A stretch of 64,000 bases of DNA from Haloferula helveola (GTDB taxonomy: Bacteria > Verrucomicrobiota > Verrucomicrobiia > Verrucomicrobiales > Akkermansiaceae): the NCBI RefSeq assembly GCF_037076345.1, contig NZ_AP024702.1, forward strand, positions 4,340,001 through 4,404,000, given 5' to 3'. The notes below the pieces were generated by a model. The model saw only the letters and a program-made list of their open reading frames with translations. It had not been told where the DNA came from and did no database searches. Within the stretch, counting starts at the first letter, position 1, and every line of letters starts with the position of its first letter. This document shows, piece after piece, positions 18,929 to 59,984 of this stretch. The position numbers were made by a program, and so were the translations under genes.

Positions 18929-19189
18929 TCAGAATGGGGAGGAGGACGAGGGACGGCCGAGGTCGAAGAGGTCATCGGGTACCGACGGCGGTGCTGTGGC
19001 GATGGCGACGGCGGCGACCGCGCAAGCGCATGCGGCACCGACCAGTGATGCCCGGAACACGAAGTGCGGTTCCGACTTGAGTGCACGGGCTCGGGCGAGG
19101 GCCGCGCGTGCGAGTCCGGGCGGGGCGGCGCCGGGTTCGGGTGTTCCGGCTTCGCGGGCTCGGGCGATGAGGGAATCGACGGGATTCAT
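18929..19189 (-). CDS. small membrane protein, probable anti-sigma factor
   Basis: 86 residues with one transmembrane segment at about 46-66 (ASLVGAACACAVAAVAIATA), a cytoplasmic-type N-terminal helix region and a short Ser-rich tail. Its ATG overlaps the stop of the sigma factor gene (ATGA at 19186-19189), indicating translational coupling. Size, topology and position match CnrY-type anti-sigma factors, but no sequence motif proves this. Confidence 0.6.
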   Translation of the reverse strand: MNPVDSLIARAREAGTPEPGAAPPGLARAALARARALKSEPHFVFRASLVGAACACAVAAVAIATAPPSVPDDLFDLGRPSSSSPF

Positions 19190-19872
19190 GGCAGGTAGAG
19201 GTCTTTGGGGAGTGAGGCTGCGATCTGGCGCAGGCGCTGGCGGGCGCGGAAGGCGCGGACCCGCACCAAGCCGGCGGGAGCGCCGGTGAGGTCGGACACC
19301 TCGGCGATGGGGCGTTCCTCGAGATCGAGCCAGACGACCAGCGCCCGCTCCGCCACCGGAAGCCGGGAGAGGAGGCGTTCCAGCAGCGAGCGGGCTTCAT
19401 CGGGGGAGAGCAGGACGGCCGACGCGTCGCTGGCGAAGCGGTCGTAGGCGAGCTGTTCGTCGGGCGAGAGCTCCGACCACAGCAGGTGCGGCCGGCGCGA
19501 GTGGTGCCGGAGGCGGTCGCGGCAGGTGCTGACGGCGATCCGGGCGACCCAGTGCTCCAGCGGGCTGGTTTCCTTGAACTGGGAGGCACGGGAGAAAACC
19601 TTGGCGAAGATTTCCTGCAGCAGGTCGTTCACCTGCTCGCGGCGGGGCAGGTGGGCATTGACAATTTTCGCCACCAGCGGGTGGAGCCGCTCGACCAGCT
19701 CCTCGGCGGCGGAATCATCGCCACCGAGCCAGCTCCGGAGCAATTCGCTCGTCGCGGGGGTCGGGTCTTCTGCCAAAACGGGGGAACTCGCACGATGCTG
19801 GGCAGGGCTCTCGCAACGCGTGAAGAACAAACGTGCGACATCCGCGACCGGAAATGTCAGAGCCTGGGCCAT
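19186..19872 (-). CDS. ECF-type RNA polymerase sigma factor
   Basis: 228 residues from the ATG at 19872. Sigma region 2 is at about 45-125 (ELLRSWLGGDDSAAEELVERL, then VNDLLQEIFAKVF and WVARIAVSTCRDRLR), and a region 4 helix-turn-helix is at about 160-218 (LPVAERALVVWLDLEERPIAEVSDLTG). The start is uncertain: a TTG at 19776 giving MAEDPTPATSELL would produce a more usual ECF length. The frame stays open far upstream, antisense to the helicase gene, but that part is not coding. It heads the operon with the small membrane protein and the Spy-like protein. Confidence 0.8.
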   Translation of the reverse strand: MAQALTFPVADVARLFFTRCESPAQHRASSPVLAEDPTPATSELLRSWLGGDDSAAEELVERLHPLVAKIVNAHLPRREQVNDLLQEIFAKVFSRASQFKETSPLEHWVARIAVSTCRDRLRHHSRRPHLLWSELSPDEQLAYDRFASDASAVLLSPDEARSLLERLLSRLPVAERALVVWLDLEERPIAEVSDLTGAPAGLVRVRAFRARQRLRQIAASLPKDLYLP

Positions 19873-19960
19873 CCAGAGTCGGTGACGACGGAGAGGGGCG
19901 GGTGTTACAGCGAAGTCGTCATTTTTTTCTGAAGTGGTCCTGCCCAGCTTGGCTTCACGC

Positions 19961-19991
19961 TTGAGACGCCCTCCCGACCGGCCTTTAGTCC
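19961..19991 (+). promoter_or_regulatory. candidate promoter of hrpA
   Basis: TTGAGA at 19961-19966 is followed after 17 bases by TTTAGT (19984-19989), about 15 bases before the ATG at 20005. It resembles the spacing seen before phoH, fabD and the YlbF gene. Weak match to sigma-70 consensus. Confidence 0.25.
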
Positions 19992-20004
19992 GCGCGCGGA
20001 GCGG

Positions 20005-23000
20005 ATGGATCGGAAACTGCCGACATTGAATTATCCCGAGGCGCTGCCGGTGGTCGAGCGTCGCGGGGAGATCGTGGACGCGATCCGGCGCTCGCAGGTG
20101 GTGGTGGTGGTGAGCGAGACGGGCTCCGGAAAAACCACGCAGCTCCCAAAGATGGTGGTGGAGGCGCTGCAAGCGGAGAGCGAAGAGCGTGGAGCGCAGG
20201 GTCAGACTCCCGGCTCGCCCCGTTTGGTCGGTTGCACGCAGCCGCGGCGGATCGCGGCGGCGAGTGTGGCGGAGCGGGTGGCGGAGGAACTCAAGGTGCC
20301 GCTGGGCGGGTTCGTCGGGTATCAGGTGCGCTTCGAGGATCGGACGTCGAAGGAGACCCGGATCAAATTCATGACCGACGGCATCCTGCTGGCTGAGACG
20401 CAGGGGGATCCGAATCTGAAACGCTACGACGCGCTGATCCTCGATGAGGCACACGAGCGCTCGCTGAACATCGACTTCCTGCTTGGATATCTGAAGCGGC
20501 TGCTCGAGCGGAGGAAGGACCTGAAGTTGGTGATCTCCTCGGCGACGCTCGATGCGGGGGCGTTCGCGGGGTTTTTCGGAGCGGGACGCTCCGATCACGG
20601 ACTGGAGCGGGACGCTCCAGCCACGGTGCCGGTCATCGAGGCCGAAGGGCGGACCTTTCCGGTGGATGAGGTGTTCCTGCCGGGTGACGAGGACGAGGAT
20701 CTCGCGAATGGCGTGGTGCGGGCGGTTGATTGGCTGACCGATACCGGCGAGTCGGGGGATGTGCTGGTATTCCTTCCCGGCGAGCGGGAAATTCGCGACT
20801 GCGCCGATGCACTGGAAGGGCGGCGGTATCGCAATACCGAGGTGCTGCCCTTGTTCGCGAGGCTCGGCCTGGGCGATCAGCAGCGGGTATTTCACCCGGG
20901 GCCGAAGCGGCGCTTGGTACTGGCGACGAATGTGGCCGAGACCTCGCTGACGATTCCACGGATCGTTTGCGTCGTGGATTCGGGGCTGGCGCGCGTGAGC
21001 CGGTGGAGTCCGGGGCGGGGGGTGCAGCGTCTGCAGATCGAGGAGGTCAGCCAGGCGAGCGCCCGGCAGCGGAAAGGGCGGTGCGGCCGGATCAGCGAGG
21101 GAATCTGCGTGCGGCTCTACGACGAGGAAAATCTCGATACGCGGCCGGAGTTCACCGATCCCGAGATCCGGCGGAGTTCGCTGGCGGGTGTGATCCTGAG
21201 GATGAAGTCGCTCGGGCTGCCGGAGATCGAGAGCTTTCCGTTTCTCGATCCGCCGGCACCGAAGGCGGTCTCCGAAGGGTATCGTACTTTGCGCGAGGTC
21301 GGAGCGCTGGACCGCGACAAGGAGCTGACCGAGTCGGGCCGGATGATGTCGCGGATGCCGGTCGATCCGCGTCTGGCGCGGATGCTGATGGAGGCCGAGC
21401 ACGAAGGAGTGCTGGCCGAAGTGCTGCCGGTGGTGGCGGGACTGGAGACGCAGGACCCGCGCGAGCGGCCGAAGGAAAAGCAGAAGGAGGCGGACAAGGC
21501 GCACGGCAAGTGGCGCCACGAGGAAAGCGACTTCCTTTCCATGCTGCGGCTGTGGAATGAGGTGCAGGCATTCCGCAAGGGGCGTGGCTGGCATGGCAAC
21601 CGGCTGCGGAAGTTCTGTCGCGAGAACTTCGTGAACTACCGTCGCGTGACGGAGTGGCGGAACGTGCATGACGAACTGGCGGAGCAGTTTGGTGGGGAGG
21701 TTGTCGGTCGGGGAAGGGGGAAAAGGCAAAGGGGAGCGGGACGCTCCTTGCACGGACTGGAGCGGGACGCTCCAGCTACGGTGGAGTTGCCGGACTATGC
21801 GGCGTTCCACCGGGCGTTGCTGGCCGGGGTGCCGCGGCAGTTCGGGTTGTGGGATCGCGAGGAAAAGGCGTATCGCTCGGCGAGCGGCGGGTTTTTCGCG
21901 GTGTTTCCCGGCTCGGGACTTTTCGGCGGCAAACGATGGGAGTGGTCGATGGCGATGGAGTTGGTCGAGACGACCCGGCTGTGGGCGCGACGCCTCGCGC
22001 GGATCGATCCCGCATGGGTCGAGCAAGTGGCGCCGCATCTCTGCCGCAGCCGCTACTCCGACGGCCACTGGGAGGAGGGCCAGGGAGCGGTGTACGCCAA
22101 GGAAACGGTCATCTGCGGCGGTCTGCCGATCGTGAGCGGTCGCCGGGTGCACTTCGGGCGGATCGACCCGTCGGCGGCGCGGAAGATCTTCATCCGCGAG
22201 GGGCTGATGCAGGGCGGTGTGAAGGGAAAGTCGCGGATCGTCGACAGGCTGCGGGAACTGCGTGAGGAGATCGAGGGGATCGAGCACAAGCTGCGCCGTC
22301 GCAACGGGCTCTGGAGCGAGGAGGCGGTGCTGGATTTCTACGAAAGCCGCCTGCCGCAGGGGATGAGCACCGCGAAGGCCTTCCATCGCTGGCGCAAGGA
22401 TCACGAGGAGACCAACCTGCCCGGTCGCGAGGATGTGGTGCTGGAGGATCTGGACGGACTGGATCTCACGGGCTTTCCCGACTGGGTCGGGCACGATGGG
22501 CAGGAATACGCGGTTTACTACCAATGCGACCCCGGGGCCCGCGACGACGGCGTGACGCTTGGCGTGCACATTGACCAACTGCCGCATGTGCCGGACTGGC
22601 TGCCGGGGTGGGGGGTTCCGGGAGAGCTTGAGCGTCGTGCCGAGTGGATGATCCGCTCGTTGCCGAAGGACCTGCGCCGTTCGTGCCAGCCGGTGGCGGA
22701 GAATGCGGCGCGCTTCTCCGACGAGTGGCGGGATCGGGAGAAGGATGCCCCGTGTGAACTACGGCTCGCGCAGTATTTGAGTCGCGTGACCGGGTTCGAG
22801 ATCGAAGCGGGCGACTTCGATGTGTCACGCTTGCCCGACGAATTGGTGACCAAGGTCTGGATCTGCGACGACGATGGCAAGGAACTGGGTTTCAGTTCGG
22901 ATCTTCCGGGGTTGAAGCGGACACTCGGTCGACTGGTGACCGAACGGTTCGAGGAGTCGGCGAACGAGGAGTGGGAAAGCAGCGGGCTGAAGACGTGGCC

Positions 23001-23793
23001 TGAGTTCGAGATTCCATCGGAGGTGGAACTTGGCTCGGGGACGGCCTATCCCGCGTTGGTCGACGAGGGGGATTGCGTCGGGACGCGGGCTTTTTCGAAG
23101 CCGGCCGAAGCGGCGGAGTCGCATCGGGCGGGTGTCGCGCGGCTGCTGATGCTCCGCCAACCGGAGCAGGTCGCCTACGTGCGCAAGAAGATGCCGCTGG
23201 GCCTGATGGCGAAGGTCGAGTTGCCGCGCATGAACTGCGACCCGTCGGATCTGATCGCCCTAGCGGCGGAAGGTGCGCTCGGGACGGGACGCATCGCGAC
23301 CGCGGAGGAATTCGAGCGCCGGGCCGAGATCGCGCGCGGTGAGTGGTGGGGCGCGGCGTTGAAGATCGGGCAGGCGATGGATGCGACGGTCGAGGCCCTG
23401 CAGCCGGTGCGCGAGAAGCTCCACGGCATGCGCGAGGACCGTCACCTCGGAGAGATCGCCGACGACCTCGATGAGGAACTGGCGTGGCTTTTCCGCAGCC
23501 GTTTCGCGTGGCACGCGGGATTCGCCCGTCTGACCGACTACGCCCGCTTCCCGAAGGCGATACTGTCGCGGATCGGAAGACTCAAGAGCCTGCCGATCGC
23601 CAAGGATCTCGAGAAGATGGACCGCGTGCGCGACTACTGGCAGCCGTGGTTCGTCGCGTGGACCGCCAAGCCGGATGATCCGGCATTGTGGGCCTACGGC
23701 TGGTTGCTCGAGGAGTTCCGGATTTCGCTGTTCGCCCCGGATGTGCCGGTGGCGATGAAGGTCAGCGAGAAGGCCCTGAAGAAAGGCTGGTGA
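20005..23793 (+). CDS. hrpA: HrpA-type DEAH-box ATP-dependent RNA helicase with two in-frame repeat insertions
   Basis: 1262 residues, the usual HrpA length. Motif I ETGSGKTTQ is at 38-46, motif II DEAH at 147-150, and SAT at 179-181. Helicase core, winged-helix/HA2 and the long C-terminal DUF3418-type region follow in the expected order. HrpA proteins unwind RNA and resolve stalled ribosomes. Two near-identical stretches (AGRSDHGLERDAPAT from residue 194, and AGRSLHGLERDAPAT about 385 residues later) are encoded by palindromic DNA repeats at 20578-20628 and 21733-21783 and interrupt otherwise family-like sequence. Both are 51 bases, so the frame is kept. The gene is monocistronic and convergent with the Dabb gene. 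Confidence 0.95.
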   Translation: MDRKLPTLNYPEALPVVERRGEIVDAIRRSQVVVVVSETGSGKTTQLPKMVVEALQAESEERGAQGQTPGSPRLVGCTQPRRIAAASVAERVAEELKVPLGGFVGYQVRFEDRTSKETRIKFMTDGILLAETQGDPNLKRYDALILDEAHERSLNIDFLLGYLKRLLERRKDLKLVISSATLDAGAFAGFFGAGRSDHGLERDAPATVPVIEAEGRTFPVDEVFLPGDEDEDLANGVVRAVDWLTDTGESGDVLVFLPGEREIRDCADALEGRRYRNTEVLPLFARLGLGDQQRVFHPGPKRRLVLATNVAETSLTIPRIVCVVDSGLARVSRWSPGRGVQRLQIEEVSQASARQRKGRCGRISEGICVRLYDEENLDTRPEFTDPEIRRSSLAGVILRMKSLGLPEIESFPFLDPPAPKAVSEGYRTLREVGALDRDKELTESGRMMSRMPVDPRLARMLMEAEHEGVLAEVLPVVAGLETQDPRERPKEKQKEADKAHGKWRHEESDFLSMLRLWNEVQAFRKGRGWHGNRLRKFCRENFVNYRRVTEWRNVHDELAEQFGGEVVGRGRGKRQRGAGRSLHGLERDAPATVELPDYAAFHRALLAGVPRQFGLWDREEKAYRSASGGFFAVFPGSGLFGGKRWEWSMAMELVETTRLWARRLARIDPAWVEQVAPHLCRSRYSDGHWEEGQGAVYAKETVICGGLPIVSGRRVHFGRIDPSAARKIFIREGLMQGGVKGKSRIVDRLRELREEIEGIEHKLRRRNGLWSEEAVLDFYESRLPQGMSTAKAFHRWRKDHEETNLPGREDVVLEDLDGLDLTGFPDWVGHDGQEYAVYYQCDPGARDDGVTLGVHIDQLPHVPDWLPGWGVPGELERRAEWMIRSLPKDLRRSCQPVAENAARFSDEWRDREKDAPCELRLAQYLSRVTGFEIEAGDFDVSRLPDELVTKVWICDDDGKELGFSSDLPGLKRTLGRLVTERFEESANEEWESSGLKTWPEFEIPSEVELGSGTAYPALVDEGDCVGTRAFSKPAEAAESHRAGVARLLMLRQPEQVAYVRKKMPLGLMAKVELPRMNCDPSDLIALAAEGALGTGRIATAEEFERRAEIARGEWWGAALKIGQAMDATVEALQPVREKLHGMREDRHLGEIADDLDEELAWLFRSRFAWHAGFARLTDYARFPKAILSRIGRLKSLPIAKDLEKMDRVRDYWQPWFVAWTAKPDDPALWAYGWLLEEFRISLFAPDVPVAMKVSEKALKKGW
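20578..20628 (+). repeat. in-gene palindromic repeat, family C copy 1
   Basis: Two hairpin units GGAGCGGGACGCTCC (6-bp stem, 3-base loop) at 20578-20592 and 20604-20618, separated by an 11-base spacer, lie inside the hrpA reading frame. Total 51 bases, a multiple of three. It encodes most of the AGRSDHGLERDAPAT insert between FFG and PVIEAEGRTFPV, two segments that are normally close together in HrpA proteins. Confidence 0.85.
21733..21783 (+). repeat. in-gene palindromic repeat, family C copy 2
   Basis: The same 51-base unit as at 20578-20628, with four differences by eye: three in the spacer and one near the 3' end. Hairpins lie at 21733-21747 and 21759-21773. It is read in the same frame and orientation as copy 1, giving AGRSLHGLERDAPAT just before ELPDYAAFHRALLAG. 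Confidence 0.85.
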
Positions 23794-59895: not shown

Positions 59896-59984
59896 AGGTA
59901 GGGACGAGCGCCCCGCTCGTCCGCGGTGGGAAGCTCGGGTCACCTACCGGCCGACGGACGAGCGGGGCGCTCGTCCCTACCTTT
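59896..59984. repeat. REPIN-like element, family B: perfect 29-bp inverted repeat
   Basis: 59896-59924 is the exact reverse complement of 59956-59984, with a 31-base spacer. Each arm also holds its own hairpin (GACGAGCG-CCC-CGCTCGTC). Two REP-like palindromes facing each other are the definition of a REPIN. It lies between the DUF177 gene start and the 3' end of gluQ, overlapping the last few bases of the gluQ frame. Confidence 0.85.

Follow-up and report, generated by a model that had tools for sequence, protein, structure and literature searches.

Two in-frame palindromic repeats in hrpA

The hrpA gene of Haloferula helveola carries the same palindromic sequence at two places and in one reading frame, which raises the question of what kind of element this is and what could have moved it there. 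We analyzed a window of 64,000 nucleotides around this locus (NZ_AP024702.1, positions 4,340,001 to 4,404,000; coordinates refer to the window unless stated otherwise), together with the whole genome and the genomes of relatives. The hrpA open reading frame (ORF) and its repeats comprise the following features:

20005..23793, plus strand: hrpA ORF, 1262 aa, DEAH-box RNA helicase (Pfam and PDB HrpA matches)
20578..20626, plus strand: copy 1 of the REP unit, 49 bases, two hairpins, read as GAGRSDHGLERDAPAT
20578..20592, plus strand: first hairpin of copy 1, 6-bp stem, 3-nt loop
20604..20618, plus strand: second hairpin of copy 1
20621..20624, minus strand: GTGG tail of copy 1 (minus-strand reading)
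21733..21781, plus strand: copy 2 of the REP unit, read as GAGRSLHGLERDAPAT
21733..21747, plus strand: first hairpin of copy 2
21759..21773, plus strand: second hairpin of copy 2
21776..21779, minus strand: GTAG tail of copy 2 (minus-strand reading)

The ORF product matches the Pfam domains DEAD, Helicase_C, HA2, OB_NTP_bind and DUF3418. All four hairpins are exact matches to the 15-mer GGAGCGGGACGCTCC on one strand and in one frame (20578-20592, 20604-20618, 21733-21747 and 21759-21773). A sequence-only reading of the window had described a 51-base double hairpin occurring twice in hrpA in the same orientation and frame; orientation and frame were confirmed, while the conserved length proved to be 49 bases. 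Folded as single-stranded DNA, both copies outperformed shuffled sequences (z-scores of -4.3 to -5.0). Copy 1 lies between the DEAD and Helicase_C matches and copy 2 between the HA2 and OB-fold matches; judged by these Pfam coordinates, both insertion sites are domain boundaries.

An antisense open frame of 1133 aa also runs across hrpA in GC-rich sequence (19186-22587, minus strand). Its far end resembles, by eye, an ECF-type sigma factor, and its long antisense part is therefore probably spurious.

Comparison with HrpA of relatives

HrpA was present in all 24 genomes searched, and the alignment comprised 22 other rows from 21 genomes, with the weaker matches L094, L095 and L097 left out. Nothing resembling either peptide was found in 20 of the 22 rows (three of these 20, L077, L079 and L085, carry a few additional residues at site 1, which are unrelated), and the solved HrpA (PDB 9ggr) shows gaps at both peptides. 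The homolog alignment thus bears out that both peptides are insertions, and with it the earlier view that a mobile-like palindromic repeat entered hrpA at two places while preserving the frame.

The remaining two rows (L073 and L074) belong to the same-genus genomes G085 and G114, whose HrpA proteins are 79% and 74% identical to that of H. helveola; both hrpA places are occupied there by REP-like inserts that have different stems. Because these inserts share their places and differ in their stems, the sites are either old or reused. A recent jump was not seen at the hrpA sites, which counts against the mobiliser explanation proposed below.

At hrpA site 2 of G085 (L182), the REP includes an additional in-frame segment with the reading PSFAKATAGR; one element may thus lie inside another.

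The repeat is a dispersed GTAG-type REP

A search of the 5.68-Mb genome with GGAGCGGGACGCTCC yielded 12 exact matches and three with one mismatch, two of which stand alone and do not represent the unit, compared with none in the reversed control. Alignment of eight copies resolved the 49-base unit into two tandem hairpins with a 26-base period, and a covariance model, built from the same eight copies that it finds, gave eight strong genome copies (E ≤ 1.4e-12; next match E 0.39). Five of them lie in frame inside ORFs, namely two in hrpA, two in ispG and one in a 292-aa ORF that is alpha/beta-hydrolase-like by eye, and the four sense-oriented intragenic copies use one common frame, GAGRSxHGLERDAPAT. 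The other three are apparently intergenic, the nearest stop codon being 8, 7 and 5 bases away from the unit; these calls rest on mechanical ORFs, and longer, probably spurious frames also cross those places. The unit is thus present elsewhere in the genome and, as had been suggested, compatible with protein-coding sequence. Eight copies are few for a REP family, a further point against the mobiliser explanation.

Across the family, the unit was detected in 32 of 145 genomes, with up to 41 copies in one genome (at a scoring limit of 41). A stricter pattern gave four named contigs, from Haloferula rosea, one Akkermansiaceae MAG (two contigs) and another Verrucomicrobia MAG. That the similarity reflects chance, a gene-internal duplication or an assembly error has in its favor that 15-mers with three mismatches are not rare within the window; set against the 12 exact matches over an empty reversed control, model E-values near 1e-13 and the related copies in other genomes, its probability is practically negligible. 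A protein repeat or chance as the origin of the hrpA repeats was ruled out by the genome census.

We then considered a family set of 94 copies from eight genomes, consisting of the own copies and 60 stretches chosen from the matches of seven relatives. Stem pairing reached 98.7% of cells (slid controls, 40-53%) and 140 cells had changed on both sides of a stem (36.9 in shuffles), figures that are favored by the fitting of this alignment to the model's structure. Read on the minus strand, the unit starts with GTGG in 46 and with GTAG in 42 of the copies (88 of 94). A rough codon score, trained on genes of known strand, assigned 67 copies no coding flank, 19 one coding flank, six an in-frame position and two another arrangement; it missed the in-frame own copies L145:2690 and L180, both in open ORFs, so that intragenic copies are undercounted. 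Copies in relatives are mostly extragenic; in the H. helveola genome, an unusual share lies inside genes.

GTAG-type REPs are short palindromes with stems of 5-13 bp and a small loop, with GTAG or GTGG next to the hairpin and an associated RAYT gene, and the unit displays all of these features. Such REPs also come in numerous copies per genome that lie mostly outside genes; for this unit, the own genome has eight copies with five intragenic, and one relative has up to 41. Based on its GTGG/GTAG tail, its paired and covarying stems and the RAYT located between two inverted copies (see below), the hrpA repeat is a GTAG-type REP with an associated RAYT transposase.

The sequence-only reading had instead likened the repeat to the Rickettsia palindromic elements, which would make it a transposase-independent repeat specialized for protein genes. 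Palindromes in frame in protein genes are indeed common to both, and two in-frame insertions in one protein as well as the stop-free frames fit this view. Yet the Rickettsia elements are CGTC-tagged, and CGTC repeats are not associated with transposase genes, according to the available portion of PMC3733652. The unit shows neither property: it has a GTRG tail, it frames a RAYT and its copies in relatives are mostly extragenic, which renders such an origin highly improbable.

In-frame palindromes, of which the sequence-only reading knew no description in Verrucomicrobiota, have in fact been reported in this phylum. The same portion of PMC3733652 described intragenic GTAG repeats in Opitutus terrae in 2013, including RNA helicases among the hosts and double REP insertions in both uvrA genes, and it links GTAG repeats to RAYTs in most species having them. 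The O. terrae GTAG REPs (GTAG-20 and others) share with the present unit the short GTGG/GTAG hairpins in ORFs, among them RNA helicases, sometimes twice per gene; the unit differs in its own stems and in forming a REP-RAYT-REP arrangement inside an essential gene, which that portion of the O. terrae account does not report (PMC3733652). The hrpA part of our results is a further case of known intragenic GTAG REPs.

We also weighed whether the hrpA inserts are adaptive and alter the helicase. The presence of two inserts in one protein and of REPs in O. terrae RNA helicases is compatible with this, and REPs in repair genes have been speculated to contribute to mutators (PMC3733652, in part). However, the unit also occurs in unrelated genes and between genes, and both hrpA sites are at Pfam domain boundaries, as for tolerated insertions, which leaves an adaptive role very unlikely.

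The window contains a second REP family, an inverted pair of GTAGGGACGAGCGCCCCGCTCGTCC with outward GTAG tails (59898-59922, plus strand; 59956-59980, minus strand). It has 18 genome matches at up to three mismatches and none in the reversed control.

A RAYT framed by the unit lies inside ispG

The genome contains 12 Y1_Tnp matches, one of which is located between two inverted copies of the unit (genome coordinates):

2447471-2447519, minus strand: inverted unit copy flanking the ispG RAYT
2448189-2448237, plus strand: inverted unit copy flanking the ispG RAYT

The frame of a 900-aa ORF, which is IspG at both ends and lies about 1.9 Mb from hrpA, outside the window, runs through this whole REP-RAYT-REP block without a stop. 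The RAYT lacks a stop codon of its own and reads through into IspG, and no other IspG was found in the genome (at E 1e-20). The RAYT part of the ORF is diverged (21.7 bits against a Pfam cut-off of 23; E 7e-4), and the Pfam scan of the fusion did not list it, another point against the mobiliser explanation. With the Pfam score below the cut-off, the RAYT was identified by aligning it with the remaining members of alignment A2, to which it is 36-50% identical.

The IspG-RAYT fusion occurred in two of the 24 genomes searched (the own genome, G000, and G085). In 20 of the 22 others both IspG halves adjoin on one contig; the arrangement in G125 and G133 could not be read. Junctions are shown for eight genomes. 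A third case was found at the same IspG site in G026 (L159). The cysteine motifs of IspG are intact in all four IspG cases. Between G000 and G085, 83% of the IspG host residues are common, compared with 50% of the RAYT residues.

Taken with the census, we consider it likely that the hrpA inserts are non-autonomous REPs and that their likeliest mobiliser is the RAYT in ispG, framed by two inverted unit copies.

Another RAYT of the own genome (L026, near 2877716-2878210, minus strand) lies about 1.4 kb from the unit copy at 2879586, for which reason the cognate RAYT was assigned by its directly flanking repeats only; this, too, counts against the mobiliser explanation. This RAYT has a different repeat near both ends, read as GHRHSCRWIGPGMNHRQECRCP, and adjoins a trmD-like ORF (by eye); the two are perhaps the repeat and the RAYT of a third REP family.

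RAYTs are fused in frame to host genes across the phylum

In relatives, RAYT matches were found in long open frames that extend far beyond transposase length. Within the order, 42 RAYT ORFs are fused in frame to host sequence, 34 of them clearly inside a host gene; the eight less certain ones (the NUDIX cases L136, L148, L162 and L164, as well as L147, L149, L172 and L176) have host homology on one side only or reach a contig end. In a wider phylum sample, 17 of 20 stretches chosen for long frames are fused, 14 of them clearly (less certain by the same definition: L295, L305 and L310). L304, which lacks a Pfam host, was left out of the count, and the phylum fetch left out G230 (685 aa), G297:C18 (730), G339:C206 (462) and G284:C53:15415 (431).

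Among the 150 matches listed, 39 were fused and 31 clearly nested, proportions that give no frequency estimate as the RAYT profile (A2, built from 11 nested and three free RAYTs) favors nested copies. Of the matches listed in a Pfam-based survey of 24 relatives, at least nine are nested RAYTs that were verified separately, with G151:C11 (679 aa) and G048:C28 (1171 aa) left out. A nested RAYT was rejected for L133, L175, L178, L308 and L313, where a stop follows just after the RAYT.

The hosts include LeuRS (10 cases), Eco57I methylase (5), MetH, CarB, IspG, NUDIX and PriA (4 each), DUF5107-TPR, GT4 and HsdR (3 each) and adenosine deaminase (2), and further ClpB, ValRS, AlaRS, XseA, HypF, mevalonate diphosphate decarboxylase and others. 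The Pfam scan covered 29 of the 42 order ORFs and all 17 phylum ORFs; six of the remaining 13 order ORFs were aligned to LeuRS and seven were assigned by flanking sequence.

The fused copies retain the hallmarks of RAYT/TnpA_REP enzymes, a Y1_Tnp domain with HUH motif and tyrosine and flanking inverted REPs. The HUH histidines are kept in all 59 fused RAYTs, and what we take to be the catalytic tyrosine is kept in 57 (absent at the alignment column in L303, a gap in L311). Flanking inverted repeats above the 95% level of the control were found for 35 of the 41 nested RAYTs and for 24 of the 33 free ones; several of the scores that pass are lower than the maximum (20) among 300 random flank pairings. 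The other six nested RAYTs gave no flanking inverted repeat above this level. Many of the repeats around nested RAYTs have GTGG or GTAG next to a hairpin.

The LeuRS inserts share a single site. The insert is present in at least four of 70 genomes with a LeuRS match (G166, G171, G178 and G192), and a fifth case is probable in G160, whose contig begins inside the RAYT. When the ten LeuRS cases are aligned to the uninterrupted LeuRS of H. helveola, the match breaks off at residue 403-417 and picks up again at 391-418, which corresponds to one loop. G166 and G171 gave no second LeuRS match, and the additional matches that the LeuRS search gave in G178 and G192 come from RAYTs or from fragments of the one ORF. 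A HIGH-like motif was identified in nine of the ten cases and was not found in L152.

Most of these genomes are draft assemblies, while the window's own genome is one contig. Misassembly is possible in single cases and unlikely as an account of the nested-RAYT pattern.

Two nested copies are themselves divided. In L311, the RAYT in an Eco57I-type methylase is interrupted in frame by a REP-like peptide between its HUH and tyrosine parts, and in L312 the AlaRS-nested RAYT matches the model in two pieces.

Selection on nested RAYTs and their movement

The dN/dS of the RAYT part was 0.07-0.19 in seven of nine pairs, two of these seven being near saturation (dS about 3) and the other two pairs saturated; L172/L176 was left out for the host half because of its poor alignment (38%). 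This purifying selection implies that more than an open frame is kept, since dN/dS would otherwise approach 1.

In a RAYT tree of 75 rows, whose 33 free RAYTs were partly hand-chosen, nested copies from the same host gene tend to group together (17 label changes versus 40.6 when shuffled). A group of 14 rows contains nested copies only, with MetH, LeuRS, IspG and DUF5107 as hosts (SH-aLRT 92). A single origin of the LeuRS-nested RAYTs was rejected (p-AU 0.024) in a test that is lenient, as the group was named after a tree had been seen. In the pair L162/L164, the RAYTs are 0.69-0.73 identical, compared with 0.88-0.99 over about 900 bases on each side, so that the transposase was either exchanged or is evolving far faster.

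These data bear on whether the nested RAYTs have become fully domesticated, immobile accessory domains that serve the host, with the genic REPs as old debris. Low dN/dS and the clustering by host gene, including the three DUF5107 cases that form one clade, point in that direction. The patchy presence in LeuRS and IspG, the rejection of a single LeuRS clade by the lenient test and the divergence of the L162/L164 RAYTs between similar flanks argue against it, and we regard full domestication as unlikely. We instead lean towards a guild of RAYTs in Verrucomicrobiota that would live as stop-free translated domains in essential enzymes (LeuRS, ValRS, AlaRS, PriA, MetH, CarB, IspG and ClpB), pass in frame between hosts, re-enter the same loops and be kept because frame loss would kill the host gene. 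By analogy, they might be viewed as non-splicing inteins, and the hrpA REPs would be their non-autonomous offspring.

Proposed mechanism and relation to known systems

In the mechanism that we propose for hrpA, a REP of two tandem hairpins and one GTRG tail would have been placed in frame at two HrpA domain boundaries and be translated as harmless additions of about 16 residues. The RAYT, an HUH Y1 transposase, would recognize and nick the GTRG hairpin on single-stranded DNA and could move REPs in trans, or the whole REP-RAYT-REP unit, as thought for other TnpA_REP enzymes. Stop-free frames would let insertions survive in genes, and those that break the frame or are misplaced would be purged. 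A RAYT inside an essential gene would be protected, since a nonsense or frameshift mutation in it would in most cases inactivate the host enzyme as well. The hrpA repeats would then be passive products of the ispG RAYT.

The nested RAYTs share with described RAYT/TnpA_REP genes and REPtrons the Y1_Tnp family, the PNHxH motif with a later tyrosine and the inverted GTRG hairpins, as far as set out in the available portions of PMC6006769 and PMC8266576, the latter of which covers RAYT-REP recognition. In-frame REPs inside tnpAREP genes have been noted for subclass 2.4, and a few unexpectedly long proteins were discarded as gene fusions or annotation errors (PMC6006769, in part). The present cases differ from known RAYTs in that no stop codon ends the transposase gene, whose frame continues into the host protein.

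Inteins with homing endonucleases likewise place a mobile enzyme gene in frame in conserved essential genes, are patchily distributed and reuse their sites. The nested RAYTs share these traits and differ in that the insert would stay in the protein and that the enzyme is an HUH transposase instead of an endonuclease; the Pfam scans, which covered 47 RAYT-host ORFs (29 of the order and 18 of the phylum sample), listed no self-splicing (Hint) domain.

In the literature searched, which left most subscription journals, bioRxiv preprints and supplements outside its scope, we found no description of RAYTs inside housekeeping genes. The new part of this work is therefore the in-frame nesting of RAYTs in essential genes, which lies outside the window and has this phylum as its scope. 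For annotation pipelines, it means that a Y1_Tnp protein of great length is not necessarily an error.

In summary, the hrpA repeats are explained by a known mobile system, and the search for their mobiliser points to a transposase way of life in which the element persists within essential genes as an insert whose frame stays open throughout. If the nested RAYTs are translated and active, the long retention of a mobile gene without host benefit would become testable, as would the persistence of low-copy RAYTs and the tolerance of housekeeping enzymes for foreign sequence.
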